A stretch of DNA of 64,000 bases, taken from the NCBI RefSeq assembly GCF_000165795.1, contig NZ_CM001022.1:124001-188000 (forward strand). Direction: 5' to 3'. The notes beneath the pieces were generated by a model that saw only the letters and a list, made by a program, of their open reading frames with translations, had not been told where the DNA came from and did not search any database. The stretch is from Aminomonas paucivorans DSM 12260. Lineage in GTDB: Bacteria > Synergistota > Synergistia > Synergistales > Synergistaceae. Below are positions 45,473-60,753 of the stretch, in pieces (position 1 is the first letter of the stretch; every line of letters starts with the position of its first letter). A program made the position numbers and the translations under genes.

Positions 45473-45482
45473 GGCCTTGCTC

Positions 45483-46397
45483 CTAGAGCCCCGCCCGGAC
45501 GGCGGCGGCCGCGGCCAGGAGGGTGACGCCCTCCAGGGGCAGCAGGGTGCCCAGGTGCCAGACCAGGAGGGGGCGCAGCAGCTCCCGGGGGAAGAGCCCC
45601 AGCCAGTAGCCCATGTTCTGCCGGAGCACCCGGGTGACGGTGCCGATGGCGTTGCCCAGGAGGAGGGCCAGCAGGGCCTGCCCCGGGGAGAGTTCCCCCG
45701 CCGCCAGGGCTCCGCCCGCGGCGGCCAGGGAGGCGGTGGCGTGGGCCAGGGCCGCGGCGGCCACGGTCCAGCCCGCCGGGGGCAGCAGGGCCGTGTGTCC
45801 CAGGTGCTCCAGCAGCAGGGCCTCGAAGGAGGGCATGAGGGCGTAGGTGAGGGCGAAGAAGGTCCAGGCCCAGGGGAGGGACACCAGGAGGGCCCGCAGC
45901 AGGCGCCGCCGCCGCTCCGTCCCCGAGGGGGGGAGGACGGCCGCGGGGGCCTCGTCCCGGGGGGTGCCGTGACGGCGCAGCAGTCCCAGAAGCCACAGGA
46001 ACCGCACGGCGCTGCGCCCCAGGAGCACCAGGGCGTAGAGCAGCCCCGTCCCCCCCGCCAGGCCCGCCGCCAGGGAGGCGGTGGTGATCCACCGACGGAG
46101 GTAGCCCGGGAAGGCCAGACAGAGGGCGCCGAAGACCGTCTCCTCCCGGGAAAGGTCTCCCTGGGCGTACCCCGACGCCAGCAGCCCCGCCCCCGCCCGG
46201 GGGGATCCCAGGGCCAGGGCCAGGGCCTGGGCGGCCCGGGGCGGGACGCGCCAGGTTCGAAGCCGGGGCAGCAGGGGGCGGAAGATCCGGTCCGCGGCTC
46301 CCGACGCCAGCACCAGTTCCCCCAGGGCGAGCCCCGCCACCACGCTGGCGGTGAGGGTCGCCTCGGCCCTCAGAAGGTCCGGCCAGGAGATCGCCAC
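45483..46397 (-). CDS. Uncharacterised membrane protein in B12 operon (nucleoside-recognition-like)
   Basis: About 304 residues with eight or so hydrophobic segments. Stretches such as SPRAGAGLLASGYAQGDLSREETVF and LLGNAIGTVTRVLRQNMGYWLGLFP recall membrane proteins with gate/nucleoside-recognition domains (the COG3366 type in archaea), but I am not certain. Start is uncertain: a GTG inside the 3' end of cbiL (28-nt overlap, no clear ribosome site) is given; a later GTG is possible. It lies between cbiL and hemA under the B12 riboswitch. A transporter for cobalt, a corrinoid or a precursor is the obvious hypothesis, not a finding. Confidence 0.65.
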   Translation of the reverse strand: MAISWPDLLRAEATLTASVVAGLALGELVLASGAADRIFRPLLPRLRTWRVPPRAAQALALALGSPRAGAGLLASGYAQGDLSREETVFGALCLAFPGYLRRWITTASLAAGLAGGTGLLYALVLLGRSAVRFLWLLGLLRRHGTPRDEAPAAVLPPSGTERRRRLLRALLVSLPWAWTFFALTYALMPSFEALLLEHLGHTALLPPAGWTVAAAALAHATASLAAAGGALAAGELSPGQALLALLLGNAIGTVTRVLRQNMGYWLGLFPRELLRPLLVWHLGTLLPLEGVTLLAAAAAVRAGL

Positions 46398-47074
46398 AGC
46401 AGCAGCACCGAGAGGTAGTCCTCCGTGGGCAGGATCGCCTCGGGCCCCGAAACCGTCCGCTCCTCCGGCAGCCCCGCCCGATGGACCCGCACCGTCCGGG
46501 CCCAGGGCCCCGTGGCGCGGACCAGCTCGGGAAGGCGTTCCCGGAGGGCCGAGGGCTTGTACAGCGCCGCCGCGTCCGCCCCCGACAGGGCCTCGGTCAG
46601 CCTGTCGAAGGGGGCGCTGGCGGGAGCCACCAGAAAGGACTCCTCCCCCATGGCCAGGAAGGAGCGGGCGGAACAGGCCGCCAGGGAGTGGGCGGAAAGC
46701 CCCGGCACCAAGCGCAGCTCCAGGTCCGGCCGGCTGGCCCGCCACACGTCGAAGAGGCTTCCCACGGTGGCGTAGAGGGCCGCGTCGCCGATCACCGGCA
46801 GGGCGACGGACCGGACCCCCTCGAGGAGGGGAGCCAGGGTCGCGAGCTGGGCCTTCAGGGCCTCGTCCCGCTCCTCCGGCACCCCGGACATGGGGAACAC
46901 CAGGGGGTGAAGGGGGGCCTCCAGGTGGCGGCGTACTACCGAACCGGCCACGCTGGTTCGGCCGGGGGCGGAGAGGGGTTCCAGCAGCAGGTCCGCCTCC
47001 CGAAGCACGCGGAGGGCCTTGAGGGTGACGAGTTCCGGGTCGCCGGGGCCGACGCCCACGCCGTACAGGATCAT
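46370..47074 (-). CDS. cbiL: Cobalt-factor II / precorrin-2 C20-methyltransferase
   Basis: SAM-dependent methyltransferase of 234 residues that adds the C20 methyl during corrin synthesis. Motifs: LYGVGVGPGDPELVTLKALRVL at the N-terminus (split at the 20-residue limit: GVGVGPGDPELVTLKAL), LVFPMSGVPEERDEAL, ALPVIGDAALYATVGSLFD with the GDxxxY-type SAM pocket, and RLVPGLSAHSLAACS. It is first in the operon. Its ribosome site GAAAGGGG is paired in a small hairpin with the CCCC just upstream, consistent with control by the riboswitch in the leader. Confidence 0.9.
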   Translation of the reverse strand: MILYGVGVGPGDPELVTLKALRVLREADLLLEPLSAPGRTSVAGSVVRRHLEAPLHPLVFPMSGVPEERDEALKAQLATLAPLLEGVRSVALPVIGDAALYATVGSLFDVWRASRPDLELRLVPGLSAHSLAACSARSFLAMGEESFLVAPASAPFDRLTEALSGADAAALYKPSALRERLPELVRATGPWARTVRVHRAGLPEERTVSGPEAILPTEDYLSVLLLWRSPGRTF

Positions 47075-47081
47075 CAGGGGA

Positions 47082-47096
47082 TCCCCTTTCGGGGGA
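47082..47096 (-). promoter_or_regulatory. Hairpin hiding the cbiL ribosome binding site
   Basis: On the minus strand TCCCC-CGAAA-GGGGA pairs the ribosome site (GAAAGGGG) of cbiL within a compact stem with a GNRA-like loop. There is no U-run or terminator in the leader, so the upstream riboswitch probably works at translation. Confidence 0.5.
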
Positions 47097-47218
47097 CCTT
47101 CGGGAAGGGGGGACACCGGAGCCTCCGGTCCGAGAGGATGAGGAGGACGAAGGGGGACGGGAATGCCGCTGCCGGTGGGCCCTGCCCTCGCAGGTCCCGG
47201 TTCCATGACGCCGCGGGC

Positions 47219-47358
47219 CGGTCTCCTGGCTCCCGTTCCTCCTACTCCCGCGCCTTCCCGGGGGGGGACCCCAGTGGCATCCGTGCGGTTTCGTCCCGGT
47301 CACAGTGGCGGGGCCGCTCCGGCTTCGGATCCCGGATTCCCGTGCCCCCGGCGGTTCG
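47219..47358 (-). ncRNA. Cobalamin riboswitch 1
   Basis: Leader of the cbiL-hem operon on the minus strand. The conserved B12 box is clear: GCCACTGTGACCGGGACGAA, then later GGGAGTAGGAGGAACGG and the closing AGCCAGGAGACCGG. The upstream P3 part has GGGAATCCGG and GGAGCGGCCCC. The element is about 140 nt, normal for this class. An extended -10 box TGCTATAAT (TATAAT at 47370-47375) lies just upstream. Bound adenosylcobalamin should reduce expression of the whole operon. Confidence 0.92.
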
Positions 47359-47369
47359 TGGTCGGGGAG

Positions 47370-47378
47370 ATTATAGCA
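47370..47378 (-). promoter_or_regulatory. Extended -10 promoter for riboswitch 1 transcript
   Basis: TGCTATAAT on the minus strand, a perfect TATAAT with the TGn extension. No -35 match is seen 17 nt upstream, as is common for extended -10 promoters. It is about 11 nt upstream of the aptamer. Confidence 0.65.
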
Positions 47379-47676
47379 CCCTGGAGGACGGGGGGCCCCT
47401 GCGGGGAGGCTCCCTCACCGCCTAAGGTCCCGGAAGAAACAGGGACAAAAGATCCGTTTCCTGACTGGCCAAGGGAAGGAGTATTTGCAATACTGTGCAA
47501 GGAAGGGAGCTGTTCTCCTCTGTCCTTCTTTCGTGGGAAGAAGCACCGCCATGACGCATGAATCGTTTCATGAAAGGGGGGGTGAGGCTTCGTCCTGGGT
47601 CTTCGGGGGTACGAGCGGCGCAGTCGGTTCGGATCGGCGGTTTGGAAAAAGAGAACGGCAAAGGAGAGGTGAGTTC
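47379..47676. promoter_or_regulatory. Upstream region of the carboxypeptidase gene
   Basis: No gene is seen. Two inverted repeats stand out: TTGCA-N6-TGCAA (47485-47500) and CATGAA-N4-TTCATG (47557-47572). Either could bind a regulator of the plus-strand carboxypeptidase gene. The ribosome site AAAGGAGAGGTG is at the right end. Confidence 0.4.
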
Positions 47677-50166
47677 ATGTCCCGCTTCGTAAGGCGTCTT
47701 CTCGCGGCGACCCTTGGGGTCTTCATCCTGGCGGTTCCCGCCCTGGCGGCCCCCGTCCGCTCCCTTCCCCGGGACGGCTTCGGGGCTCCGGGAGCGGGGG
47801 ACTCGCAGCAGCAGATCCTCCAGATCCTCCGGCAGGGCAAGGGCGCGATCCCCACGACCCCCTACGGAGGGGTCAACATCGCCAGCGACCCCGTCCTGGC
47901 GAAGCTGCTTTACCCGGACGTGGTGAAGAACTGGTTCGACGGCAAGGTGGCGGGGATCACCCTCCAAACCCCTGCCTTCACCAGCAACCACGGTTCGGAC
48001 GTGCAGGGCCAGGTGGGCTGGAACACCACCCAGGAGGAGCTGCTGGGCTTCCTGAACAACCTGCCCAAGAGCAACATGCGGGTGCAGATCGTGGCGGAGT
48101 TTGCCGCCAAGACCAGCGCCGGGGCGGTGGAGCAGACCTTCAAGCTCCCCCTGGCGGTATTCAGCAAGCCCCCGGTCTTCGACCCGGCGGACCTGAAGGC
48201 CTTGGGCAAGCCCGTGGTCTACCTCCAGGCCATGATCCACGGGGACGAGCACAGCGGCGGCGAGGCCATGCTGGCCCTGGCCCAGAAGCTGGCCACGGAC
48301 GAACTCCGCGTCCTGGACAAGATCTCCGTGGTCATGATCCCCCGGTTCAACGTGGACGGGGCCTGGCGCTACACCCGGGGCACCAACACCGCCAACCCCG
48401 TGTGGGGACAGCCGGAGCTGTCCAGGGGCTTCGACCAGAACCGGGACCACACCAGCTTCTCCTCTCCCATCACCCGGACGATCCACACGGTGGTGAACGC
48501 CTACCGTCCCGACGTGTGCATCGACTGCCACGAGATGGGCTACGGCTTCAACCGGGAGTCCTCCGGAGGCACGTCCCTGGGCTATCGGGACTTCTACCTC
48601 TTCGACCTGGTGACCCTCATCGCCCACCCCGCCAACGTCCCCGCCTCCGTGACCGCCCTGAACCGGCAGCTGGAGTCGGGCATCGCCCAGGACCTCCGCT
48701 CCCGGGGGTTGAACTGGGACTATTACTTCTACGGCTGGGCCTCCCGCCAGGTGTCCGCGGACGTCCTCTCCACGGACCTGTCCACCCTGATCTCCGGGGA
48801 GGTGGACGTCACCACGGAACTCATGGAGGGCCCCCCCGACGAGGCCATGACGGACTCCGCCCTGAGCCTGAAGCCTGCGGTGAGCATGCTCTTCGAGACC
48901 CGATCCCCCAAGGTCCTCCCCAACTACAAGACCCGGGTGTACGCCCACCTGTCCGCTCTGGAGTCGGTACTTCGCCAGGTGGCGGCTCGTCCCGACACCT
49001 ACCGGGACACCGTGGCGGCGGCCCGGGCGGCGGTGGCAGCCCAGGGAGCGGCCCCCGGCGCGGGGAACGACCTGATCCTGTGGGTGCGCCAGAAGACCAT
49101 GGTCTCTCCGGATCAGGCGGTGCTCTCCTTCAACGCCGCCCACACCCAGGTGGCCCCGGGCACCCTGAAGATGAACAAGTCCTACCGCAACGACCAGCTG
49201 ACGCCGGTGAAGTCCGTGGCGCGCCCCTACGCCTACATCCTCTCCGGGGACATGGGGGCGGTGGCGGAGCGGCTGACCTGCACGGGGGTGACGGTGCGCC
49301 GTCTCACCCAGGCGACCTCGGTTCCCGTGGAGGCCTACCGCATCGACGAAGTGGTGAACGACGACGACCCGGCCCTGGACATGGAGCACCGGGGCACGGA
49401 CTACTTCCCCTGGAACGGGACCATCACCAAGGTCATCAACGGCGTCACCGCCTCCAGCCGGACCGTGACCTTCCCCGCCGGGTCCTACGTGGTCACCCTG
49501 GATCAGCCCTCCGCGAACCCGGCGGCCCTGGCCCTGGAGCCTCTGGCGAACCGGAACCTGGGGAACTACTGGCTCACCATGAACGCCCTGGGCAAGAGCA
49601 CCGCGGGCTTCGTCCCCGTGACGGTGGGAGGGGAGTATCCCGTCTACCGCTGCATGAGCGTCCTCTCCCTCCCGGCGGAGGCCCTGTCCGTGGCCCGTCC
49701 CTTCCTGGACGGCGCCGTCGTGGCCTCCTGTCTGCCCCTGGGCTCCGCGGAGCTGGCTCCTCTGAACAAGACCGCCCTGGGGAGCAAGGAGGTGCGCTTC
49801 GGCTACTTCTTCACCGCCGAGGCGACGGACCAGCCCGGGCAGAAGCCTGCGGGCTTCGACCTGGTCCTCCCGAAGGAAGGGAACGGCTACACCCTGGAAA
49901 CGTGGTATCTCTACGACTGGGTTCAGGGGACCTTCGTCCCCGCCACCCCCGTCGCGTCGACCAGCGGGGCCCGGACGGTCCGGGTGGAGGGCAACGCCCT
50001 GGACGCATCGGGGCGGGTCCTGGCGGTGGCCACGGGGGTGATCCCCACGATCACCCACACCCCCACTCCGGGACATCGGAGCAGCGGCGGCTGCGACGCC
50101 GGGGCGTTCCCGGCGGTGGCGGTGCTCCTGGTCCTGGCCCCGGTGGCCTTCCTGCGGCGTAGGTAA
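47677..50166 (+). CDS. Secreted M14-type zinc carboxypeptidase with Synergist-CTERM tail
   Basis: Exported protein of 829 residues. Signal peptide about 1-25 (LLAATLGVFILAVPALAA). The zinc site fits family M14: HGDEHSGGE (His188, Glu191) and IDCHEMG (His285), with IPRFNVDGAWRYTRGTN and the GFDQNRDH segment supplying substrate-binding Arg/Asn. The catalytic glutamate is probably in DVTTELMEGPPDEAM. Residues 450-790 form additional beta-rich domains that I do not recognise. The end is RSSGGCDAGAF, a hydrophobic helix and RRR, a Synergist-CTERM sorting tail. It would trim peptides outside the cell to feed the amino-acid fermentation. It is a single-gene unit with its own terminator. Confidence 0.85.
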   Translation: MSRFVRRLLAATLGVFILAVPALAAPVRSLPRDGFGAPGAGDSQQQILQILRQGKGAIPTTPYGGVNIASDPVLAKLLYPDVVKNWFDGKVAGITLQTPAFTSNHGSDVQGQVGWNTTQEELLGFLNNLPKSNMRVQIVAEFAAKTSAGAVEQTFKLPLAVFSKPPVFDPADLKALGKPVVYLQAMIHGDEHSGGEAMLALAQKLATDELRVLDKISVVMIPRFNVDGAWRYTRGTNTANPVWGQPELSRGFDQNRDHTSFSSPITRTIHTVVNAYRPDVCIDCHEMGYGFNRESSGGTSLGYRDFYLFDLVTLIAHPANVPASVTALNRQLESGIAQDLRSRGLNWDYYFYGWASRQVSADVLSTDLSTLISGEVDVTTELMEGPPDEAMTDSALSLKPAVSMLFETRSPKVLPNYKTRVYAHLSALESVLRQVAARPDTYRDTVAAARAAVAAQGAAPGAGNDLILWVRQKTMVSPDQAVLSFNAAHTQVAPGTLKMNKSYRNDQLTPVKSVARPYAYILSGDMGAVAERLTCTGVTVRRLTQATSVPVEAYRIDEVVNDDDPALDMEHRGTDYFPWNGTITKVINGVTASSRTVTFPAGSYVVTLDQPSANPAALALEPLANRNLGNYWLTMNALGKSTAGFVPVTVGGEYPVYRCMSVLSLPAEALSVARPFLDGAVVASCLPLGSAELAPLNKTALGSKEVRFGYFFTAEATDQPGQKPAGFDLVLPKEGNGYTLETWYLYDWVQGTFVPATPVASTSGARTVRVEGNALDASGRVLAVATGVIPTITHTPTPGHRSSGGCDAGAFPAVAVLLVLAPVAFLRRR

Positions 50167-50200
50167 TTCGCCCCTGCGGGCACGACAGTGGCGACACGAA

Positions 50201-50237
50201 GCGGGGAGCCCCGGTGGTTTCGGGGCTCCCCGCTTTT
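50201..50237. terminator. Terminator after the carboxypeptidase gene
   Basis: Perfect 13-bp stem GCGGGGAGCCCCG / CGGGGCTCCCCGC with a 7-nt loop and TTTT on the plus strand. It lies between convergent genes and can also stop the B12 operon coming from the other side. Confidence 0.85.
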
Positions 50238-50256
50238 CGGTCCGAGGAGGAGTGCT

Positions 50257-52809
50257 TCAGGCGAAGGGCTGCTCCACCCGGTTGTCCAGGTGGTCCAGCA
50301 GGTCCGTCGTCAGGGCCGCGGGGGTGGAGAAGGACGTCCCCACGGCGGGAGGGGGGGTGAGCACCACCAGGGGGATGCCCCGGCTTCGGGCCGCCCGGGC
50401 CTTGGCCTCCATGCCCCCCGGGGCGCCGCTGGCCTTGGAGACCAGGGCCCGGGCCCCCGACTCCTCCAGGAGGGCCCGAAGGGAACCCTCGTCCCCCGGG
50501 CCCCACTGGCAGAGGACCTCCCGGGGTTCCAGCCCCGTCGCCAGGGCGGCGTCCAGGCTTTCCGGCGTGGGGAGGACCCGGGCCAGGAGACGGCGGTTCT
50601 GGGCCTTCAGGGGGGGCACCAGGCGGGGCAGCAGGCGCACCCCCAGGGTCAGGACGAGGAGGTCCCCCGGCCGGGTGCTCTCCAGAAGCCGGGCCAGCAG
50701 GGCCTCCGGGGAGGCCACCGCCAGGGCCCCTTCGGGCACGGGGGTGGGGCGTCGCAGGACCCAAAGGGGCAGCCCCGTCCGCCGAGCCGCGATTCGGAAG
50801 GCCTGATGGGCCTCCTGGGCGAAGGGATGGGCCGCGTCCACCAGGGCCGCCAGGCCGGCCCGCTTCCGGTCCTCCAGCAGGAGGATCCAGGCGGGGGTGT
50901 CCCGGCGTCCCACCAGGGGGACGACCCCCTGGGGCACCGTGACGAGCCCCGTCTCCTCCGCCACCGAGGCTCCCACCCGAAGCCCCCGGTCCCGGAGCCG
51001 TTCCGCCACCTCCCGGGCCTCGGAGGTGCCCCCCAGCACCAGCACGTCCAGGGGGTCCTGGGGGAGGGCGGGTTCCCGGACCTCTTCGGAGCCGTAGCCT
51101 CGCCGGTCCAGCCACAGGCCCTTCCAGGGCTCCACCCCCTCCCCGGGGAGGACCACCAGGGTGCGCATGTCCACCCGATCTTCCGTCAGCGCCTCCAGGG
51201 GGAGGGCCTCCACCGTCTGGTCCGGCCGGTCCACGTCCCGGCAGAGGAGCGCCGTGGGCCTGCGGCGGAAGGCGCGGCGCACCGCCGCCAGCTTCGTCCC
51301 CAGGTCCCGGCGCACGGGGTTGTAGAGCACCGTGGTGAGTCCCCCCGCCGCTGCGGCCTCCAGGGCGCGCTCCACCGAGGACCAGGGCTGGAGGTAGTCC
51401 GAGAGGGAGAGGAGGCAGAGCCCGTTGGTGTAGGGAGCCCCCAGGAGGGTTCCCGCCCGCTGGGCCGCGGTGATCCCCGGCACCACCCGCACCGGGACCC
51501 GATCGGCCCCCAGGCGGAGGGCCAGGGCGGCCAGGCCGAAGAGGATGGGGTCGCCGCCGCACACCAGGGCCACCCGGTGCCCCCTTTCTGCCAGGTCCAG
51601 GGCCCGACGGACCCGATCCTCCTCCTCCCCCATGGCGTAGCGCTCCACGTGCCGTCCCTCGGTGCAGGCCGGGGGCAGCAGGTCCACGTAGAGGCGGTAT
51701 CCCACCACCGCGTCCGCCCCCTCCAGGGCGGACCGGGCCTCCTGGGTGAGGCACTCCGCCGACCCGGGGCCGGTTCCCACCACCGCCAGGCTTCCCCGGG
51801 GAGCGGGAAAGGGGATGCGGGAGAGGGCCACCGTCACCCCGTCCCGGATCAGGCGGGGCCCCAGGGGAGAGCCCAGGGCGGCGGCGCAGGGCTCCGCCAC
51901 CCCGGGGACGTGGAAGTGCCGCTGCGCCGCGGAGGGGGAGAAGGGCCCCTCCTGGGCCCGCAGGGTCTCCGGGGAAAGGGGGCTCAGGGGCAGCCCCAGG
52001 GTCCGGGCGGCCTCCTCCAGCCCCGGTTCCTGGGCCTTGGCCTCCAGGGTGGCCAGGGCTCCCAGGGCCTCCCGCAGGAAGGGGCCTCCGGGGGCCTCCT
52101 CCAGGGCACCGTCCAGGGCCTCCAGGAGGGCGTCCCGTTTCGCCCCCCGGCGGCACCCCACCCCCGCCCCCAGCAGGGGGGGCACCAACTGGATCGCCCC
52201 CTCGGGGAGGGGGATACGCCGGGGGGACACCAGCACCCGGGCTCCCTCCGGGGCGGCCACGGGCCGGGCTCCGAAGGGCAGGGGGAGGGGGCTTGCCAGG
52301 GGGTCCTCGGAGAAGGGCGCCAGGAGGGGGTCGATCCACCAGGGAAGGGACCCCTGATCCAGGAGGGAGCGCAGAAGCCCCGGGAGGGCCTCCCGGCCCC
52401 GGAGGGACAGTCCGTGGCGACGGGCCCAGCGGTCCGGGGCCGTCAGGCCCCGGCGGTCCGTGGAGGTGGTGGGGATCCACCCCGCCCCCAGCAGGGCGGC
52501 GCAGCGTTGGGCCAGGTCCGCCCCGCCTCCCAGGTGGCCCCCCGCCACGGCCAGCACGGTTCCCCCGTCCTCGGAGACGCAGAGCACCGTCGGGTCCGTG
52601 GCCTTGTCCCGCAGCAGGGGGCCCGCAGCCCGCACCGCCACCGGCAGGGATCCCACCAGGATCAGGGCCCCCGCCCCGTCCCAGAGTTCCCGAAAGCGAC
52701 CCTGGAGGGAGCCGGGCTCCAGGGGAAGGGCGGTTCCCCCCAGCCCCCGGGCGATCTGTTCCCCCAGGGCCGAGGCGGCGGGGGCGTGGAGCACGTAGAG
52801 GGGCTTCAC
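50257..52809 (-). CDS. cbiGHJ: CbiG-CbiH-CbiJ triple fusion of cobalamin biosynthesis
   Basis: Protein of 850 residues. Residues 1-337: CbiG, cobalt-precorrin-5A hydrolase (TVLAVAGGHLGGGADLAQ, VPPLLGAGVGCRRGAKRDAL). Residues 338-575: CbiH, precorrin-3B C17-methyltransferase (LAVVGTGPGSAECLTQEAR, VVGYRLYVDLL, VALVCGGDPILFGLA, VVPGITAAQRAG, DVDRPDQTVEALPLEAL). Residues 586-850: CbiJ/CobK, precorrin-6A reductase (VLVLGGTSEAREVAERL, VDAAHPFAQEAHQAF, VLCQWGPGDEGSLRALL, LVSKASGAPGG). The three act in nearby but not consecutive steps. Start is GTG in a GTGA overlap with cbiF. It is the last gene of the operon before a terminator. Confidence 0.92.
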   Translation of the reverse strand: MKPLYVLHAPAASALGEQIARGLGGTALPLEPGSLQGRFRELWDGAGALILVGSLPVAVRAAGPLLRDKATDPTVLCVSEDGGTVLAVAGGHLGGGADLAQRCAALLGAGWIPTTSTDRRGLTAPDRWARRHGLSLRGREALPGLLRSLLDQGSLPWWIDPLLAPFSEDPLASPLPLPFGARPVAAPEGARVLVSPRRIPLPEGAIQLVPPLLGAGVGCRRGAKRDALLEALDGALEEAPGGPFLREALGALATLEAKAQEPGLEEAARTLGLPLSPLSPETLRAQEGPFSPSAAQRHFHVPGVAEPCAAALGSPLGPRLIRDGVTVALSRIPFPAPRGSLAVVGTGPGSAECLTQEARSALEGADAVVGYRLYVDLLPPACTEGRHVERYAMGEEEDRVRRALDLAERGHRVALVCGGDPILFGLAALALRLGADRVPVRVVPGITAAQRAGTLLGAPYTNGLCLLSLSDYLQPWSSVERALEAAAAGGLTTVLYNPVRRDLGTKLAAVRRAFRRRPTALLCRDVDRPDQTVEALPLEALTEDRVDMRTLVVLPGEGVEPWKGLWLDRRGYGSEEVREPALPQDPLDVLVLGGTSEAREVAERLRDRGLRVGASVAEETGLVTVPQGVVPLVGRRDTPAWILLLEDRKRAGLAALVDAAHPFAQEAHQAFRIAARRTGLPLWVLRRPTPVPEGALAVASPEALLARLLESTRPGDLLVLTLGVRLLPRLVPPLKAQNRRLLARVLPTPESLDAALATGLEPREVLCQWGPGDEGSLRALLEESGARALVSKASGAPGGMEAKARAARSRGIPLVVLTPPPAVGTSFSTPAALTTDLLDHLDNRVEQPFA

Positions 52810-53579
52810 CGGGGTTCCTCCCCCCGGCGGTGTCCGTGGGCGAAGGCGGGGTGGTAGAGGAGGCTTCGGGCGTCCCCCGGGTCCAGGCAGCGTCCGATCA
52901 CCAGCAGGGCGTGGCGCCGGATCCCCGCTTCCTCCAGGGAGGCCGCCAGGTTTTCCAGGGTGGTGCGTCCCACCCTCTGGTCCGGCCAGGTGGCCCGGTA
53001 GACCCAGGCGGCGGGGGTGTCCGGGGAAAGCCCCCCCTTCAGACAGGAAGCCGTCACAGCGGCGGCGTGCTCCGCCGAGAGGAACACCGCCAGGGTGGCT
53101 CCCGTGGCGGCCAGGGCCGTCAGGGATTCCTCCTCCCGCACGGGGGTGCGCCCCGGCGCCCGGGTGCAGATCAGGGTCTGGGTCCCCCCGGGGACGGTGT
53201 ACTCCACCCCCAGGGCCGCTGCGGCGCCCTGGAGGCTGGAGACCCCCGGAACGATCCGAACCCGGATCCCCCGGTCCTCCAGCAGACGGATCTGCTCCCC
53301 GATGGCCCCGTAGAGGCTCGGGTCCCCCGTGTGGAGGCGCACCACCCGTTTTCCGTCCCGGGCGGCTTCCGTCAGCAGGTCCACCTGTTCCTCCAGAGAG
53401 AGGGGGGCGGAGTCGGCCAGGCGGGCGTTCTCGCGGCAGCAGGCCAGGATCTCCCGGTTCACCAGGCTTCCCGCGTAGAGCACCAGGTCCGCCTCCTCCA
53501 GGAGGCGGCGGCCCTTGAGGGTGAGCAGCTCCGGGTCCCCGGGGCCGGCTCCGACGATGTGGATGCAGGGTTCCTTCAA
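52806..53579 (-). CDS. cbiF: Cobalt-precorrin-4 C11-methyltransferase
   Basis: SAM-dependent methyltransferase of 257 residues. The N-terminus is IHIVGAGPGDPELLTLKG; further motifs are VLYAGSLVNREILACC, VVRLHTGDPSLYGAIGEQ (SAM pocket), IVPGVSSLQGAAAALGVEYT and FLSAEHAAAVTASCL. Start is TTG; it overlaps the cbiET stop (TTGA), and its own stop overlaps cbiGHJ (GTGA). It acts just before CbiG in the cobalt-early pathway. Confidence 0.92.
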   Translation of the reverse strand: MKEPCIHIVGAGPGDPELLTLKGRRLLEEADLVLYAGSLVNREILACCRENARLADSAPLSLEEQVDLLTEAARDGKRVVRLHTGDPSLYGAIGEQIRLLEDRGIRVRIVPGVSSLQGAAAALGVEYTVPGGTQTLICTRAPGRTPVREEESLTALAATGATLAVFLSAEHAAAVTASCLKGGLSPDTPAAWVYRATWPDQRVGRTTLENLAASLEEAGIRRHALLVIGRCLDPGDARSLLYHPAFAHGHRRGEEPR

Positions 53580-54865
53580 GGCAGATCCCCCCAGATCAGG
53601 TCCACCGGGTTCAGGGCGGAGGGGGTCCAGTGGGGACCCAGCCTGCGGCCTTCCGCGGCGGCGATGCGCCAGAAGCCTGTCTCCAGGCCCCGGCGTTCCA
53701 GATGTTCCAGCGTTCGCGGCGCCGTGGCAAGCCCCAGGGAGGCCACCACGATCCTTCCCTTCGGGGTCAGGCGGGCCAGGGTCCCGTCCAGCACCCCCTC
53801 CAGGTCCGGGCCGTGTCCCCCCACGAAGGCCCCCTGAAAGGGAGGCTCCTCCAGGTCGACCAGGGCCTCCGGGGCGCTTCCCGCCACCAGGCGGACCTGA
53901 TCCCCCAGCCCCAGTCGCTCCAGGTGGCGGGCCGCCAGGTCCCGGGCTTCCGGGTTTCGCTCCAGGGAGACCACCCGGCTCCCGGCGCGGGCCAGCTCCG
54001 CCGTGACCCCCCCGGTGCCCGTGCCGATCTCCAGGATCCGGGATCCCTCCAGGGGGGCCAGAAGGGCCAGGACCAGCCCCCGGAGGGGGGCCTTGGTGAG
54101 GGGCACTCCGGGGTGGCGCAGGAAGTCCCCGTCGGGCAGGAGGCCCCGGCGGGGGCAGGGCGTCCTGCCGGGAAGGGGACCGGAGGGGGCGGCCCCACCC
54201 GCCTCGGGTCGGGGGGGCTCCGGGGGGGCCAGCCAGAGCAGCCCCAGGCGACCCCGGAAGGGGTTGCGGCGCAGCTCCCCCAGGGTCCCCCGAAAGACCT
54301 GCTCCCGGGGGGTCCCCAGGTCCCAGCCCAGGGCGGCGGGGAGGCCTTGAAGCCCCGCTTCCTCCGCAAGCCACGCCAGCTGCTCCGGCACCTCCGGGGC
54401 GGCCCCCAGCAGCAGCGCCGCCCCTCCGGGGGCCGTCGCCGCGGCCCGGAGGTCCTGGGGGTCCGGCAGGGCCCGGCCGTGGAGGGACCGGGTGGCGGTG
54501 CGTTCCCAGGGGAGGCCCAGCCGGGCCGCCAGGAGCTGGAGGCAGGAGATCCCCGGCAGGGAGCGAACCCGGGGGCCGAAGGCCTCCCGGAGGCGACGCG
54601 CCAGGCTGTAGAACCCCGGATCGCCGCTCACCAGCACCCCCACGGGCCCCGGGGCGTCCTCCACCAGTCCCGGCAGGTCCGCAAGCCGGGGGGGGAGGGG
54701 GCGGCGGTCCTGCCCCGGGGCGAGGGGAAGCAGCTCCAGGTGTCGGGGGTCTCCGAAGAGGGTGCGCAGGGAGAGGGCCAGGTCCGCCGCCGCAGGGGGA
54801 AGCCAGCGGGGATCCCCCGGCCCCATGCCCAGGACCAGGACGGCGTTTTCCGGGTGGTCGGTCAC
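53576..54865 (-). CDS. cbiET: CbiE-CbiT fusion (cobalt-precorrin-7 C5 / -6B C15 methyltransferase-decarboxylase)
   Basis: Protein of 429 residues equivalent to aerobic CobL. Residues 7-213: CbiE (VLVLGMGPGDPRWLPPAA, VGVLVSGDPGFYSLARRL, SLPGISCLQLLAARLGLPW). Residues 240-429: CbiT (DFLRHPGVPLTKAPLRGLVL, ILEIGTGTGGVTAELARAG, AFVGGHGPDLEGVLD). Start is GTG in a GTGA overlap with cbiD. Together the halves add two methyl groups and remove one carboxyl. Confidence 0.93.
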   Translation of the reverse strand: MTDHPENAVLVLGMGPGDPRWLPPAAADLALSLRTLFGDPRHLELLPLAPGQDRRPLPPRLADLPGLVEDAPGPVGVLVSGDPGFYSLARRLREAFGPRVRSLPGISCLQLLAARLGLPWERTATRSLHGRALPDPQDLRAAATAPGGAALLLGAAPEVPEQLAWLAEEAGLQGLPAALGWDLGTPREQVFRGTLGELRRNPFRGRLGLLWLAPPEPPRPEAGGAAPSGPLPGRTPCPRRGLLPDGDFLRHPGVPLTKAPLRGLVLALLAPLEGSRILEIGTGTGGVTAELARAGSRVVSLERNPEARDLAARHLERLGLGDQVRLVAGSAPEALVDLEEPPFQGAFVGGHGPDLEGVLDGTLARLTPKGRIVVASLGLATAPRTLEHLERRGLETGFWRIAAAEGRRLGPHWTPSALNPVDLIWGDLP

Positions 54866-55980
54866 GGTCGTTCCTCCTCCTCCGGCCCCCGGCGCAGGGA
54901 CGCCGTCAGGGCCTCCACGTCCCCCCACCGGGCCAGTTCCCGGCGGGGGAGGGCGAAGACCACGCAGGCCACGCGTTCCGCGGTCCCGCAGATCCGGGCG
55001 GCGGAGGCGGCGGCCCGGTGGGCGGTCTCCTCCAGGGCCTTGCGTCCCGGTTCGGTCTCCAGGAGGGCGCAGGCCGCCTCGTCGGCGGTGTTGGCCTCCA
55101 GGACCCGACGCACCTCCTCAGGGGAGGCCCCGTGCAGGGCCGCGTAGGCCCCCAGAGCCTCCAGGCGCCCGTCGCTTCGGGCGCTGTGGGTGTCCCGGGA
55201 CCCTGCGGCGAGCTTGGCGAACTTCCCCACCTGTCCCACCAGAAGCAGCTCCCGAAACCCCAGGTCCGCCGCCGCTGCCAGGGCCTCTCCGGCGAAGTTG
55301 CTCATCCCCACCAGGGGACCCTCCGGAACCCCCAGGGATCGGGCCATCTCCCGACCGTAGTTTCCCGGCACCAGACAGACCGCCCGGCGCCCCTCCGCCG
55401 CCAGCACCGACAGCTCCGCCCGGAGGGTGGCGGTGAGGGCGGGCTCGCTCATGGGGCGCACCACTCCCTGGGTTCCCAGCACCGAAAGTCCCCCCTCCAC
55501 CCCCAGGCGGGGGTTGAAGGTGCGGGCCGCCACCTCCTCTCCTCCGGGGATGGAGAGGACCACCCGGACCCCCAATCCCGGGGGCAGTTCCCCGCGAAGG
55601 TGCTCCTCCAGCATCCTTCGGGGGGTGGGGTTGATGGCCCGTTCCCCCACGGGCACGGGCAGCCCGGGGCGGGTGACCACCCCGATGCCCTCCCCCGCCT
55701 CCAGGAGGATCTCCCCTCCCGGGACGAGGGCGACTCGGGCCACCACCGCCAGGCCGTGGGTCACGTCCGGGTCGTCCCCCCCGTCCTTCACCACCCAGGC
55801 CTCCGCCCCCCCGGGCACCGCCCGGCAGCCCCCCAGGGGGATGGAGAGGACCCCGCCCCCGGGCAGGCGGACGGAGACCCGGAGGGTCGGCCGGGCCAAA
55901 AGCCACCGCACCGCCCCCAGGGCGGCGGCGACCGCGGCGGTTCCGGTGGTGAAGCCCCAGCGGAGGGAGGGGGTCGTCAC
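54862..55980 (-). CDS. cbiD: Cobalt-precorrin-5B C1-methyltransferase
   Basis: Enzyme of 372 residues specific to the anaerobic pathway. Motifs: LRWGFTTGTAAVAAALGA at the N-terminus, WVVKDGGDDPDVTHGLAV, PAINPTPRRM-like GERAINPTPRRMLEEHL, VLGTQGVVRPMSEPAL and LLVGQVGKFAKLAAGSRDTHS. GTG start overlaps the upstream binding-protein stop by 4 nt. Its presence, together with cbiG and cbiK, identifies the cobalt-early route. Confidence 0.94.
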   Translation of the reverse strand: MTTPSLRWGFTTGTAAVAAALGAVRWLLARPTLRVSVRLPGGGVLSIPLGGCRAVPGGAEAWVVKDGGDDPDVTHGLAVVARVALVPGGEILLEAGEGIGVVTRPGLPVPVGERAINPTPRRMLEEHLRGELPPGLGVRVVLSIPGGEEVAARTFNPRLGVEGGLSVLGTQGVVRPMSEPALTATLRAELSVLAAEGRRAVCLVPGNYGREMARSLGVPEGPLVGMSNFAGEALAAAADLGFRELLLVGQVGKFAKLAAGSRDTHSARSDGRLEALGAYAALHGASPEEVRRVLEANTADEAACALLETEPGRKALEETAHRAAASAARICGTAERVACVVFALPRRELARWGDVEALTASLRRGPEEEERP

Positions 55981-56999
55981 GGCTTGGCCTTCCCGCCCTC
56001 CCGGGCCCCGTCCACCAGGGACTCCAGCAGGGCCAGGGCCTTGGGGAGGCGCAGCACCGAGGGACGGGAGACGAAGGCCTCCGGCACGTCTCGGACCCGA
56101 CCGGCCCGCACCGCCTCCAGGGCGGACAGCCGGGGGTCCCGGGCCAGCTCCGAGGCGGGGAGGGCGTTCATGGCCCCCTGCTGCACCAGCACCAGGCGCA
56201 GGCGGTTTCCCAGCCCCAGGAGGCGTTCGTCCCCGAAGGAGGCCACGGCGCTGCCCGGGGAGAGGGGCCGGGCGTCAGAGGCCAGGTTCTCCGCCCCCGC
56301 CGCCTCAAGGAGCCGGTCCGCCCAGCAGCCGGGGGAGCAGGTGGTGAGGGTTCGAGCGGTGGTCACCAGGAAGACCCCCGGTCGGGGCTCGCTTTGGTGT
56401 CTGCGGCGTGCCCGGTCCGTGAGGGCCACGGTGCGTTCCCCCACGCGCCGGGCCTCGGCGGTCCGTCCCGTCAGGGCCCCCAGGCGGTTCAGGTAGGAGG
56501 CGAGGTTCCCCCATGCCGGGGGCTCCAGCACCGCCACGGGGATGTGGAATCGCTCCAGCTGTCCCAAAAGCTGGGGCTGCATCTGGAGCTGCAGGGGGCG
56601 CAGCACCACCAGGTCGGGGCGCAGGGCCAGGAGGGCCTCCACGTCGGGCTTCAGGGGCAGGCGTCTTGCCGGTCCCGCCCAGGCGGAGTCGTCGGCGGCG
56701 CTGACCCCCGCCAGTTGCCCCTTGGCCCCGAGGGCCACCAGGTTCTCCGTGTGGGCGACGTAGAGGGAGACGATGCGGGAGGCGGGGCGGGGGAGGGTCA
56801 CGGTGCGCCCCGCGTCGTCCCGGACCCGGAGGGCCGCCGCCCCGGTCCCGGGCAGCAGGACCAGCAGCAGGGATAGGAGGACCAGTACAGGAAGTCCCCG
56901 GAGGAGGAAGTCTCCTGGGTCGGGGGAATCATCCACAGGAGTGGACAACTTGGTGGACAACTCCGTCGGTGCTGTGGGGAGGTTGTGGATAAGGGTCAT
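55977..56999 (-). CDS. Substrate-binding protein of a metal/cobalamin-type ABC transporter
   Basis: Protein of 340 residues of the BtuF/FecB class: RVRDDAGRTVTLPRPASRIV, SLYVAHTENLVALGAKGQLAG, LLALRPDLVVLRPLQLQMQP, and EAVRAGRVRDVPEAFVSRPS. The hydrophobic signal segment (GLPVLVLLSLLLVLLPGTGA) begins only near residue 35. The preceding n-region is unusually long and is encoded by DNA with several DnaA-box-like words. ATG start has GAAGGAG 10 nt upstream. No permease or ATPase gene is nearby, so it must pair with components elsewhere, perhaps the 2679-5598 type. Cobalt chelates or corrinoids are likely ligands from context. Confidence 0.8.
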   Translation of the reverse strand: MTLIHNLPTAPTELSTKLSTPVDDSPDPGDFLLRGLPVLVLLSLLLVLLPGTGAAALRVRDDAGRTVTLPRPASRIVSLYVAHTENLVALGAKGQLAGVSAADDSAWAGPARRLPLKPDVEALLALRPDLVVLRPLQLQMQPQLLGQLERFHIPVAVLEPPAWGNLASYLNRLGALTGRTAEARRVGERTVALTDRARRRHQSEPRPGVFLVTTARTLTTCSPGCWADRLLEAAGAENLASDARPLSPGSAVASFGDERLLGLGNRLRLVLVQQGAMNALPASELARDPRLSALEAVRAGRVRDVPEAFVSRPSVLRLPKALALLESLVDGAREGGKAKP

Positions 57000-57029
57000 G
57001 GTCCGTCGACTCCTTCAGGGAACCAGGCG

Positions 57030-57068
57030 CTCCGGGCCCCCGGGCGTCGTCGCCTCGGGGGCCCGGAG
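57030..57068 (-). terminator. Strong stem-loop between cbiK and the binding-protein gene
   Basis: Perfect 13-bp stem CTCCGGGCCCCCG / CGGGGGCCCGGAG with a 13-nt loop. On the minus strand no U-run follows, so it is more likely an mRNA-stabilising or attenuating structure within the operon. On the plus strand it is followed by TTTTT. Confidence 0.55.
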
Positions 57069-57073
57069 GGTTT

Positions 57074-57976
57074 TTAAAACGCCTTCTTCGCCGCTTCCTT
57101 CAGATGCTCCAGCATCAGGGCCCGCACCTCCGGGTTCTGGCCGAAGCCCTGGAGGACCGTGTCCACCCGGAAGCCCATCTTGGTGAGCTGACTCTTCCAG
57201 GAGTCCTCCTCCGGTCCCGCCATGTCGTTGTGGGCGTGGTCCCCCGCCACCAGCATGGCGGGCACCAGGGTGACCCGCCGGACCCCCAGGGCCTGGAGGC
57301 GGGCGACCAGGTCGTCGAAGGAGGGGGTGCCCTCCACGGTGCCCACCAGCAGTTTGGGGCTGATGCGGTTCAGCACCGTCTGGAGGCGGGAGTAGGCCCC
57401 GTTGGCGGGATGGGGGGTTCCGTGGCCCATGAAGACCACCGCCCCGTCCTGGAGGCGCTTGCCGTAGGTCCGGTTCAGCGCCGCCGCCAGGCGGTCGAAG
57501 TCCTCGTCGGACCAGAGGAGGGGACGGCTCAGGGCGATGCCCCGGAAGCCCGTCTTGCCCTCGTCGCGCCCCAGTTGGTCGAAGCAGCGCACGATGGTCC
57601 CCAGGTCCTCGTACTCCTCCCCGGGGATCACGTGGGTGGACAGGATGGCCACATGGGTGAACCCGTCGGCGTGGAGCTTCGCCAGGGCCACCAGGGGATC
57701 GTCGATGATCTGCCCCTGCTTGGCCAGCTTGCGCATGATGATCCGGGAGGTGTAGGCCACCCGGACCTCCGTGCCCGGGAAGGCCTGCTTCACCGAATCC
57801 AGGGTGGCGGCGATGGCCGCCTGTCCCTCGGGCATGGAGCTGCCGAAGGAGACCAGCAGCACCGCGGGCTTGGCGGGGGTTTCCTTGGACGACGAGGCCA
57901 TGCAGGCACCTCCCAGGGCGAAAAGCAGGGTCAGGGCCAGGGCCCAGACCGGGGCGAGGGTTCGGATCTTGGTCAA
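57074..57976 (-). CDS. cbiK: Sirohydrochlorin cobaltochelatase, exported type
   Basis: Chelatase of 300 residues that inserts Co2+ into sirohydrochlorin. Motifs: AVLLVSFGSSMPEG, the active-site histidine in AILSTHVIPGEEY, VVFMGHGTPHPAN, and VPAMLVAGDHAHNDMAG with the second metal histidine. An N-terminal signal-like segment (LAPVWALALTLLFALGGAC) precedes about 15 Ser/Lys/Pro residues, so the enzyme is probably exported or membrane-tethered, as known for CbiK(P) of Desulfovibrio. The cysteine is not in a good lipobox. Start is TTG with AAGGAGG 8 nt upstream. It is the only chelatase seen in the two B12 operons. Confidence 0.9.
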   Translation of the reverse strand: MTKIRTLAPVWALALTLLFALGGACMASSSKETPAKPAVLLVSFGSSMPEGQAAIAATLDSVKQAFPGTEVRVAYTSRIIMRKLAKQGQIIDDPLVALAKLHADGFTHVAILSTHVIPGEEYEDLGTIVRCFDQLGRDEGKTGFRGIALSRPLLWSDEDFDRLAAALNRTYGKRLQDGAVVFMGHGTPHPANGAYSRLQTVLNRISPKLLVGTVEGTPSFDDLVARLQALGVRRVTLVPAMLVAGDHAHNDMAGPEEDSWKSQLTKMGFRVDTVLQGFGQNPEVRALMLEHLKEAAKKAF

Positions 57977-58083
57977 CGAAGACGCCTCCTTCCAGATGCG
58001 GTTGCGGGGTGCCCCGAAGAGCGGGTCCGGGCCGAGGCGCCTTCGGTCCGGGGGGCGGGACGGGTACGCGGGTGGGCGGAGGA

Positions 58084-58719
58084 TTAGGGAGAAGGGGCCT
58101 CCCCTGCCAGGCGAAGCAGGGCGTTGCAGGCGGCGGCGCAGAGGTTCGACCCCCCCCGGGGACCCGAGAGGACCACGCAGGGCAGGCCCGAGGCCAACAG
58201 GGCCCGCTTGCTCTCCGCCGCCCCCACGAAGCCCACGGGGAAGGCGCAGACGAAGTCCACCGGGGCTCCCGCCTCCGCCCGCTCCAGAAGCCGGAAGAGG
58301 GCGGTGGGGGCGTTGCCGAAGGCGTAGAGGCGCACCCCCTGGTCCGCCGCCAGGTCCACCGCCGCCATGGCCCGGGTGACCAGGGCCTCCTCGCTGCGGC
58401 GGCGCACCTCCGGATCGTGGATGGCCGCCAGGGGGTGCAGGCCGAGGCGTTCCGTCAGGGGGCGGGAGAGGCCCGACCGCACCATCTCCACGTCGCAGAA
58501 GAGCGGTCCCCCCCGGCGCAGGGCCTCGACGCCCCGCCGGACCCCTTCCGGGGAACTCCGAAGCAGGGAGGCCAGGGAGAAGTCCGCCCCCGCGTGGACC
58601 ACCCGTTCCGCCACCGGGCGAAGCTGCGGTTCCAGGGCGTAGGAGTCCAGCACGGAGCGGATGAGCCCCAGGCTGGTCTCCTCGATGGACTGAGGGTCCC
58701 TGCAGTAGGCGAAGGGCAT
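58084..58719 (-). CDS. cbiC: Cobalt-precorrin-8 methylmutase
   Basis: Enzyme of 211 residues that moves a methyl group from C11 to C12 to give cobyrinate. Motifs: IEETSLGLIRSVLD, the catalytic histidine in ERVVHAGADFSLASLL, GGPLFCDVEMVRSGLSR, YAFGNAPTALFRLLE and CAFPVGFVGAAESKRAL. Start is ATG behind AAGGGAG. It is the first gene after riboswitch 2. A 107-nt gap without a gene lies before cbiK. Confidence 0.93.
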   Translation of the reverse strand: MPFAYCRDPQSIEETSLGLIRSVLDSYALEPQLRPVAERVVHAGADFSLASLLRSSPEGVRRGVEALRRGGPLFCDVEMVRSGLSRPLTERLGLHPLAAIHDPEVRRRSEEALVTRAMAAVDLAADQGVRLYAFGNAPTALFRLLERAEAGAPVDFVCAFPVGFVGAAESKRALLASGLPCVVLSGPRGGSNLCAAACNALLRLAGEAPSP

Positions 58720-58743
58720 GCCGTCGTCTCCCTTCCATGGCCG

Positions 58744-58778
58744 AAAGTAAAAGAGGCCGCCGCCTTGCGGCGACGGCC
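58744..58778 (-). terminator. Terminator of riboswitch 2 expression platform
   Basis: On the minus strand GGCCGTCGCC and GGCGGCGGCC form a 10-bp stem (one G-U pair) with a short loop, followed by TCTTTTACTTT. It lies between the aptamer and the cbiC ribosome site, the normal place for a B12-triggered terminator. Confidence 0.85.
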
Positions 58779-58850
58779 CCACCCAGACGGGAAGAAGTTC
58801 CCGACAGGAGGCGCCCGCCCGCGCAGGCCTTCCTTCCCGAACCTTGCGCG

Positions 58851-58990
58851 AACCGGTCTCCTGGCTTCCGTTCCTCCTACTCCCGCGCCTTCCCGGGGGG
58901 TGCCCCCGGTGGCTCCTCTGCGGTTTCGTCCCGGTCACAGTGGCGGGGCCGCTCCGGCGTCTCACCGGATTCCCGTGCGTTCGCGCGGCG
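58851..58990 (-). ncRNA. Cobalamin riboswitch 2
   Basis: Leader of the cbiC-cbiGHJ operon. The B12 box GCCACTGTGACCGGGACGAA is identical to that of riboswitch 1. The flanking parts (GGGAATCCGGTGAGACGCC, GGGAGTAGGAGGAACGG, AGCCAGGAGACCGG) are also nearly the same. Unlike copy 1 it is followed by an intrinsic terminator, so it should act on transcription. A TGGTACAAT extended -10 box lies upstream at 59003-59011. Confidence 0.93.
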
Positions 58991-59002
58991 CTGTTCCCGG
59001 GC

Positions 59003-59011
59003 ATTGTACCA
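59003..59011 (-). promoter_or_regulatory. Extended -10 promoter for riboswitch 2 transcript
   Basis: TGGTACAAT on the minus strand (TACAAT with TGn), only 4 nt past the end of the ZIP transporter gene. No -35 box is visible because that region codes for the ZIP C-terminus. Confidence 0.55.
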
Positions 59012-59014
59012 CCA

Positions 59015-59821
59015 TCAGCCCAGAGCCACGTCCAGGACCATCATGACCACGAAGCCCGCCACCAGGCCCAGGGTGGCCTGGTCCCCGTTGCCCGCGGACT
59101 GGGACTCCGGGACCACCTCTTCCACCACCACGAAGACCATGGCCCCGGCGGCGAAGGCCAGGGCGTAGGGCAGCAGGGGACGGGCCAGCTGCACCAGCAG
59201 GGCCCCCAACAGGGCGAAGAGGGGTTCCACCACCGCGGAGAGCTGGCCGTAAAGGAAGGATTTCCCCGGGGACAGCCCCTCCCGGCGCAGGGGCAGGGAG
59301 ACCGCCAGCCCCTCGGGGAAGTTCTGCAGCCCGATCCCCAGGGCCAGGGCGACCGCCCCGGCCAGGGAGGCGGAGGCGAGGCTTCCCACGGCCCCGAAGG
59401 CCACCCCCACCGCCAGCCCCTCGGGGATGTTGTGGAGGGTGATGGCCAGGACCAACAGGGTGGTGCGCTTCCAGTGGGTGGGGAGCCCTTCGGGGGAACC
59501 GTCCTTCAGAGCGGGGTGGAGGTGGGGGAGGAGGGTGTCCAGCCCCCGCAGGGCCAGAGCTCCCAGGGAGAACCCTGCGGCGGGGGGCAGCCAGCCCGGA
59601 AGACCCAGCTCCTCGGAAAGCTCGATGGCCGGAGCCAGGAGGGACCAGAAGCTGGCGGCCAGCATCACTCCCCCCGCGAACCCCAGCATCACGTCCAGGG
59701 TCAGGCGGGAGGGGTTGCGGCGCAGGAACACCAGGGCAGCCCCGGCGGCGGTGACCCCCCAGGTGAACAACCCCGCCAGCAGGGCCTGGAGGGGAGGGGA
59801 AAGATCGACGAGGTTCGACAC
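59015..59821 (-). CDS. ZIP-family divalent metal transporter
   Basis: Inner-membrane importer of 268 residues with eight hydrophobic segments. The two metal-binding motifs of the family are clear: [19 protein letters not shown] in helix IV and [16 protein letters not shown] in helix V. A His-containing loop ([12 protein letters not shown]) precedes helix IV. Zinc is the usual substrate, but iron, manganese or cobalt are possible. Its place after a Fur-family regulator and a ZnuA-like gene supports zinc; its place just before a B12 operon leaves cobalt open. Confidence 0.88.
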
Positions 59822-59883
59822 GGCGGCACCTCCTCGGGTGAGTCTGAAAGGAGTTTAGCCCATCCCGAGGAGTCGAGGAAAGG

Positions 59884-60753
59884 TCAGTCCAGGGCCTCCC
59901 GGAAGATCCGGGCCTGACGGCGCAGGTTCCCCAGCCAGTCCTCCGCCAGGGGGTCCGCCTTCACCACCCGGGCGTTCAGTGCCTCCGCCAGCGTGGCGGC
60001 GCTCCTCGCGGAGATCTGGGGCTGCAGGAAGAGCACCTTGACCTTCAGTTCCCGCCCCCGGTCGATGAGGGCCTTCATCTGGGCGGGTTTGGGCTCCTTT
60101 CCCTCCACCTCTACCGCCACCTGGCGGAGGCCGTAGTCCCGGCAGAAGTACCCCCAGGCGGGGTGGAACACCATCAGGGTCATGCCCTTGCGGGGGGCCA
60201 GGAGAGACGAGAGGTCCCGGTCCAGCTCCCGAATCTCCCGGGACAGGGCCTCGGCGTTGCGGCGGTACGTCGCCGCCCCGGCAGGGTCCAGGGAGATCAG
60301 GCCGTCCCGGAGGTTGCGCACCATCTTCAGGCCGTTGCGGGGGGAAAGCCAGATGTGGGGGTCCAGGTTTTCCGGGCGGGTCCCTGCCTCCCCCGCGCCC
60401 TCGTGGCCGTGTTCCTCCATGGGGATGCGGAGGATGCCCCGGTCCGCCGGGATCACCGCCAGGGACGGGGCTGTCCGGACGACCCGGTCCAGAAGGGCTT
60501 TCTCGAAGGGCATACCCAGGGAGAAGCACCCCGCTGCCCGGGAAAGCTCCGCCATGAGGCGGGGGCGAGGTTCGAAGGTGTGGGGGTCCGCCCCCGGGGG
60601 CACCAACACGGACACGGCCACCCGGTTTCCTCCCACCCGCTCCGCCAGGTACTTCAGGGGAGGGATGGGGACGAAAACCCTAAGGGGGGCTGCCGCGGCG
60701 GGAAGGCACAGGGCCAGGACCAGGCAGAGGGCGCAGAAGAGACGACGACGCAT
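59884..60753 (-). CDS. ZnuA-like metal-binding protein of an ABC transporter
   Basis: Exported cluster A-I binding protein of 289 residues. Signal peptide about 1-22 (LFCALCLVLALCLPAAAA). Motifs: PIPPLKYLAERVGGNRVAV, VPPGADPHTFEPRP with the first metal histidine, a short His-rich loop EEHGHEGAGEAG, DPHIWLSPRNGLKMV, VFHPAWGYFCRDYGL and EGKEPKPAQMKALID. These fit zinc or manganese binding; the His-rich loop favours zinc. The ATG overlaps the regulator stop by one base (TGATG). Genes for the permease and ATPase are not in the window. Confidence 0.85.
   Translation of the reverse strand: MRRRLFCALCLVLALCLPAAAAPLRVFVPIPPLKYLAERVGGNRVAVSVLVPPGADPHTFEPRPRLMAELSRAAGCFSLGMPFEKALLDRVVRTAPSLAVIPADRGILRIPMEEHGHEGAGEAGTRPENLDPHIWLSPRNGLKMVRNLRDGLISLDPAGAATYRRNAEALSREIRELDRDLSSLLAPRKGMTLMVFHPAWGYFCRDYGLRQVAVEVEGKEPKPAQMKALIDRGRELKVKVLFLQPQISARSAATLAEALNARVVKADPLAEDWLGNLRRQARIFREALD

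Follow-up and report, generated by a model that had tools for sequence, protein, structure and literature searches.

Paired corrinoid riboswitches on the halves of a split B12 operon in Aminomonas paucivorans, one of them followed by an intrinsic terminator

How may two nearly identical cobalamin sensors, each standing before one half of the same B12 operon, come to act through different outputs, and how did such a pair arise? The question is raised by a 64-kilobase (kb) stretch of the genome of Aminomonas paucivorans DSM 12260 (G000:C1:124001-188000, here called the window), a genome of 2.63 Mb in a single contig. Searched with Rfam at gathering scores, the window holds two matches, both to the cobalamin riboswitch family RF00174 and both on the minus strand: copy 1 at 47219-47342 (73.7 bits), upstream of cbiL and the genes that follow it (unit 1), and copy 2 at 58854-58975 (73.8 bits), upstream of cbiC and its followers (unit 2). 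Both exceed the gathering cut-off of 31.5 bits, in matches that span model positions 45-169 only, and by this score both elements are real corrinoid riboswitch aptamers. The reading preferred here, to which we give a probability of about 0.6, is that both would be classical repressing corrinoid riboswitches on a split operon, copy 2 controlling transcription and copy 1 controlling translation. The type of control is ordinary; the arrangement on a split B12 operon is unusually tidy. Features below lie on the minus strand and are given in window positions unless stated otherwise.

An earlier sequence-only reading of the region had described the two aptamers as nearly identical, which holds for their cores. 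The repeat finder returns a single pair between copies 1 and 2 (115 nucleotides (nt), 90% identity), and the cores, taken from GGGAA to the B12 box, are 90.8% identical in a multiple alignment with gap columns ignored, or 94.9% identical when aligned pairwise with gaps freely allowed. The near identity is limited to the core, however, as the P1 arms, the promoters and the expression platforms differ between the copies; within the core, the differences fall mostly in variable loops. Each copy's own P1 arms pair at -20.6 (copy 1) and -16.1 kcal/mol (copy 2, with arms GCGCGAAC at 58986-58979 and GTTCGCGC at 58853-58846). Yet the 5' arm of copy 2 pairs with the 3' arm of copy 1 at -17.3 kcal/mol, better than with its own partner, and arm pairing is therefore no proof of P1. 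A consensus promoter scan of 46000-60000 finds no full sigma-70 site. Putative promoters can nevertheless be read from -10-like elements, TATAAT after TGC for unit 1 (47370-47375) and TACAAT after TGG for unit 2 (59003-59008), the latter adjoining the end of a ZIP gene; both follow TGN and end 28 nt upstream of the Rfam matches.

The route from aptamer to output can be followed through the kissing loop, which according to a genetic study joins L5, of consensus UCCCG, to L13 of the P13 hairpin (PMC10653944). In both leaders L5 reads CCCCG (47309-47313 in copy 1, 58944-58948 in copy 2). A P13 hairpin is present in each, CCTG-CGAGGG-CAGG at 47181-47194 with L13 at 47190-47185, and GCCTG-CGCGGG-CGGGC at 58813-58828 with L13 at 58823-58818, and in both leaders L5 and L13 are complementary in sequence and make a candidate kissing loop. 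The motif recurs in a leader set of 61 distinct cores from 32 genomes of the order, which includes some near-identical orthologues from sister species. A P13-type hairpin (stem of at least 4 base pairs (bp), loop CGNGGR, within 110 nt) is found in 33 of the 61 leaders, whereas 100 shuffled sets give a mean of 1.4 and a maximum of 5; at L5, 59 of the 61 leaders have NCCCG. The set goes back to 97 loci given to the core pattern, of which 76 matched and 21 did not; 80 loci were taken from the upper part of the matches listed, and the divergent own copy at C1:281261 lies outside the set. The variable N of CGNGGG fits a bulged base. With adenosylcobalamin bound, L5 (CCCCG) would kiss L13 (CGNGGG, N bulged) and stabilise P13. 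The alternative that L13 of copy 1 is itself the ribosome site was dropped, given the CCCCG of L5 in the light of PMC10653944 and the recurrence of the CGNGGG hairpin in the order.

What follows P13 differs between the leaders. Downstream of copy 2 lies the intrinsic terminator that the sequence-only reading had proposed, found by terminator scan and folding at 58780-58753 (12 bp, -25.8 kcal/mol) and followed by TTTT at 58752-58749; among 500 dinucleotide shuffles of the leader, only 4 attain -25 kcal/mol and 54 attain -15 kcal/mol. By its anatomy, copy 2 is a transcriptional riboswitch. The 3' arm of P13 and the 5' arm of the terminator form a candidate antiterminator duplex of -21.9 kcal/mol, and a stabilised P13 would stop its own 3' arm from capturing the terminator arm, so that the terminator would form and unit 2 would be switched off. 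Two results weigh against such switching: 349 of 2000 shuffled arms equal the antiterminator, and the free-energy fold of the leader forms the terminator in both states, which is why switching of copy 2 would have to be co-transcriptional. A similar design is described for the metE riboswitch of Priestia megaterium, where the 3' side of P13 is able to capture the terminator; as reported in PMC10653944, it shares with copy 2 the L5-L13 kissing loop, P13 and the pairing of the P13 3' side with the terminator 5' side. It differs in belonging to another phylum and another gene, and L13 of copy 2 has an extra, presumably bulged base.

A terminator was also looked for in leader 1, and none was found, either by the rule applied to leader 2 or with four T allowed; no 8-nt window of this leader holds more than four T. 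Copy 1 is therefore probably translational, by the missing terminator and by analogy, best with the cbiL leader of a genome of a neighbouring genus, G021, in which the partners of the ribosome site and of P13 overlap and 31 of 1000 shuffles match the site partner and 18 of 1000 the overlapping set; the cbiL leader of a second such genome, G031, is weaker (122 and 48 of 1000). In leader 1, the 5' side of P13 (GGGACCT) could pair with AGGTCCC in a candidate antisequestor duplex of -14.2 kcal/mol, a helix that averages 0.98 when folded alone and 0.00 with P13 forced. A ligand-stabilised P13 would keep GGGACCT from AGGTCCC, leaving AGGTCCC free to pair over the cbiL ribosome site, and cbiL translation would fall. 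A hairpin at 47079-47098 (-11.3 kcal/mol alone) is able to cover the Shine-Dalgarno sequence AAAGGGG (47089-47083).

Several results weigh against this translational step. In the regional fold, the pairs of the Shine-Dalgarno hairpin average 0.00 unforced and 0.11 with P13 forced, and pairing of the ribosome site hardly differs between the two states (0.59 and 0.65). Of 1000 dinucleotide shuffles, 776 offer the site a partner as good as the best one found between P13 and the site, and 557 equal the antisequestor in energy. No overlap is seen between the two best partners in leader 1, while overlapping partners just as strong arise in 242 of 1000 shuffles, and the missing overlap reduces our confidence in the preferred reading. 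In the cbiC leaders of G021, G031 and a third genome, G002, the same overlap test is reached by 70, 102 and 125 of 1000 shuffles, respectively. Thus, of the earlier proposal that copy 1 leads to a hairpin over the cbiL ribosome site, the ability to form stands, but the regional fold does not favour the hairpin and the shuffles match the site pairing. The broader claim that one sensor serves two types of output fares similarly: the core is shared and a terminator follows copy 2 only, whereas translational control by copy 1 is plausible without rising above composition.

Between P13 and the site, leader 1 holds a C-rich, G-poor stretch (47102-47179) that may load Rho. Its C minus G of 0.308 lies at the 99.1 percentile of 78-nt windows on the minus strand of the window, while the best window of leader 2 reaches 0.026, the 51st percentile, and the genome has a Rho gene (638 bits). 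The stretch and the gene make Rho-dependent termination the main mechanistic rival, in which copy 1 would end transcription via Rho, alone or together with translational repression. Yet the argument is one of composition, and G021 and G031 show a weaker bias in their cbiL leaders (0.18 and 0.21); we consider this outcome unlikely, and translational control remains the preferred output for copy 1. Models for it, as presented in PMC10653944, are Escherichia coli btuB and env8HyCbl, in which the kissing loop and P13 promote a hairpin at the ribosome site, and env8HyCbl is described there with a bulged kissing loop, comparable to the presumed bulge in CGNGGG here. Copy 1 departs from both in that its site pairing does not exceed composition and in the Rho-like stretch.

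Differing outputs within one genome have precedents. In the TaRTLEt RNA-seq survey, 10 of 15 Gram-negative taxa are reported to have one or more cobalamin riboswitches that terminate, and nearly all of these ten also have copies with no sign of termination (PMC12121620). These cases resemble the window in their differing apparent outputs, but they come from genome-wide RNA-seq, whereas here two close paralogues on the halves of a split operon are known from sequence alone. As the survey already describes mixed outputs per genome, the pair is no new kind of regulation; it makes a good natural pair, as the sequence-only reading had suggested, but a less special test case than was then supposed. 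In the leader set, too, terminator status is mixed in 8 of the 13 genomes with two or more leaders. The terminator rule, a loose one, is positive in 50 of 61 leaders compared with 11-26 of 61 in ten shuffled sets, and scores neither the cbiC leaders of G002, G021 and G031 nor the cbiL leaders of G021 and G031. Thus the counterparts of copy 2 in the neighbouring genus lack the terminator that A. paucivorans has.

The genes controlled would make up one pathway. Unit 1 begins with cbiL (46370-47074, ATG at 47074), whose TIGR01467 match of 141 bits is below the curated cut-off of 163, while Pfam TP_methylase is above its own cut-off; a Dethiosulfovibrio (Synergistota) contig holds a match of 54% identity. 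An in-frame ATG at 47206 was ruled out as the start, as the best match to the family starts only at residue 46 of that frame. The rest of unit 1 (38819-46397) encodes a Gate-like membrane protein, hemA-like and sirC-like genes, hemC, a cobA-hemD fusion, hemL and hemB; the hemA and sirC matches are below the NCBIfam cut-offs. The membrane protein (45483-46397), with a weak Pfam Gate match (E 0.0065), holds the same place after cbiL in all six relatives compared, and may, as a guess, be a cobalt or corrinoid transporter. Unit 2 (50257-58719) runs through cbiC, cbiK, a gene for a BtuF-like binding protein, cbiD, cbiET, cbiF and cbiGHJ, and includes two fused genes, cbiE-cbiT (53576-54868) and cbiG-cbiH-cbiJ (50257-52809). 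Between the units, a gene with a profile match to M14-type peptidases (47677-50166) lies reversed, on the plus strand; no match to it was found in the compared stretches of the six relatives. A search of the genome for hemE found none (the control search was positive in 7 of 14), and both units therefore probably serve corrinoid rather than classical haem synthesis. For the same reason, the idea that the sparing of haem synthesis explains a different output before cbiL and the hem genes was dropped.

The peptidase gene interrupts an order that is otherwise kept. In the stretches of the six relatives, the riboswitch is followed by cbiC, cbiK, the btuF-like gene, cbiD, cbiET, cbiF, cbiGHJ, cbiL and the Gate-like gene, with a ZIP gene upstream in G002, G021 and G031, and with hemA or sirC-hemC downstream where the stretch extends far enough. 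In four of the six (G002, G015, G030 and G011), cbiGHJ and cbiL are adjacent with no second riboswitch. At the same junction, G021 has a riboswitch, G031 a riboswitch and about 1.15 kb of other DNA, and the window a riboswitch and the reversed peptidase gene; the insert of G031 (L219:11642-12794) is AT-rich and foreign-looking. Across the family, a riboswitch lies in the cbiL flank in 3 of 27 genomes with a cbiL match, namely A. paucivorans, G021 and G031, a count in which the match of one locus (L203) lacks any upstream sequence and that of another (L064) has only 422 nt of it. Copy 2 would thus be the old leader of one long operon from cbiC to the hem genes, which the reversed peptidase gene would have cut between cbiGHJ and cbiL. 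Copy 1 would be a paralogue with its own promoter, returning the distal half (cbiL, hemA, sirC, hemC, cobA-hemD, hemL and hemB) to the same sensor.

How the second copy came to the junction is a separate matter. The sequence-only reading had taken near identity to suggest duplication, and in its favour copies 1 and 2 are reciprocal nearest cores among the 61 and stand together on the best aptamer tree (17 rows) with support of 79/77, not starred. The cores of the order are alike anyway, however, with a between-genome identity of 82% at the median and 89% at the 95th percentile, and repeated copying or homogenisation may have contributed. It could even be argued that there is no duplication signal, the cores being alike only through strong conservation of the aptamer, given the between-genome values and the concentration of differences in variable loops. 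We hold this to be very doubtful, as the two cores are reciprocal nearest neighbours in their own genome by both alignments and as many sites are common only within a genome. Sites split by genome rather than by position in ratios of 16:0 for A. paucivorans and G021, 15:0 for A. paucivorans and G031, and 5:1 for G021 and G031, a count with none of a third kind and in which positions 6-9 hinge on the alignment of one indel.

The account given about even odds is that the cbiC riboswitch was copied to the cbiGHJ/cbiL junction at least twice, in this lineage and in the ancestor of G021 and G031. The three cbiL cores, a group defined by position although pairwise identities had been seen beforehand, are rejected as a single clade (dlnL 43.9, p_AU 4e-5). 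In a tree of seven proteins from seven genomes, midpoint-rooted and with the odd letter make-up of the A. paucivorans row flagged, A. paucivorans groups with G002, G021 and G031, and G021 with G031, with inner branches at 100/100; two gains and no loss suffice on it if G015, G030 and G011 are the outgroup. The expression platforms add to this. The cbiC platforms of A. paucivorans, G002, G021 and G031 resemble one another more than shuffles do (0 of 500 each), but the cbiL platform of A. paucivorans shows no clear likeness to its counterparts in G021 and G031 (26 and 141 of 500 shuffles) and is somewhat closer to the cbiC platforms of G021, G031 and G002 (19, 8 and 18 of 500). Nor is it clearly like its own cbiC platform (68 of 500), which counts against this account, as do the modest support for the pair and the need for a reason why copying should strike the same junction twice.

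Alternatively, one ancestral duplication before cbiL may have been followed by homogenisation of the cores within each genome by gene conversion, with P1 and the platforms drifting apart and G002 losing its copy. Aligned pairwise, each copy has its closest core in the partner within its own genome, and this holds for all three genomes with two copies (94.9, 95.9 and 95.8% in A. paucivorans, G021 and G031), and the site counts point the same way. G021 and G031 share homologous cbiL platforms (0 of 500 shuffles), and so their second copy is older than the split between the two. In the multiple alignment, however, the partner is nearest in only two of three genomes (A. paucivorans and G021), the G031 pair being 89.2% identical compared with 91.0 and 90.3% to the cbiC cores of G021 and G002, and this lowers the odds of homogenisation. 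Holding the cbiL cores of G021 and G031 together is likewise not rejected (p_AU 0.21), and G002 has no second copy. The evidence for homogenisation is therefore mixed and we think it improbable as the full account, although some of it is possible inside the neighbouring genus (G021 and G031). The data fit either two copyings or a single copying followed by loss in G002 and by homogenisation; for A. paucivorans itself we lean towards two copyings. Slightly less probable still is a general form of the idea, concerted evolution in which gene conversion would keep the aptamers of the pathway halves alike in each genome while promoters, P1 and platforms diverge freely, giving a shared sensor with separate outputs. 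Open-access literature searches found nothing relevant on riboswitches with gene conversion and concerted evolution, and, on duplicated or paralogous riboswitches, no evident match among the matches listed.

Other cobalamin riboswitches of the order also deserve mention. The A. paucivorans genome holds two further RF00174 matches, at C1:35714 and C1:281261, with aptamers 59-78% identical to copies 1 and 2 in the multiple alignment. The former (G000:C1:35714-35878, L001) is followed by a strong terminator before an aconitase gene, an arrangement also seen in three genomes of the neighbouring genus (L011, L021 and L204; protein identity 75-76%); a literature search gave nothing evidently on B12 control of aconitase among the matches listed. 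The latter (G000:C1:281261-281378, L002), the fourth and divergent copy, precedes a gene whose product, of 400-odd residues and without a Pfam match, is probably secreted. Two other genomes carry tandem cobalamin riboswitches about 140 nt apart (L146, G056:C1:1173010-1174227; L150, G048:C1:920050-921212), with cores 99.1% identical within each genome.

For the biology of A. paucivorans, the pair offers a near-constant aptamer joined to different platforms on one pathway in one cell, in which the effect of the platform would be measurable, and it makes homogenisation of aptamers within a genome a testable question. The place of the second copy, exactly at the cut in the operon, suggests how a split pathway may stay under one metabolite sensor.

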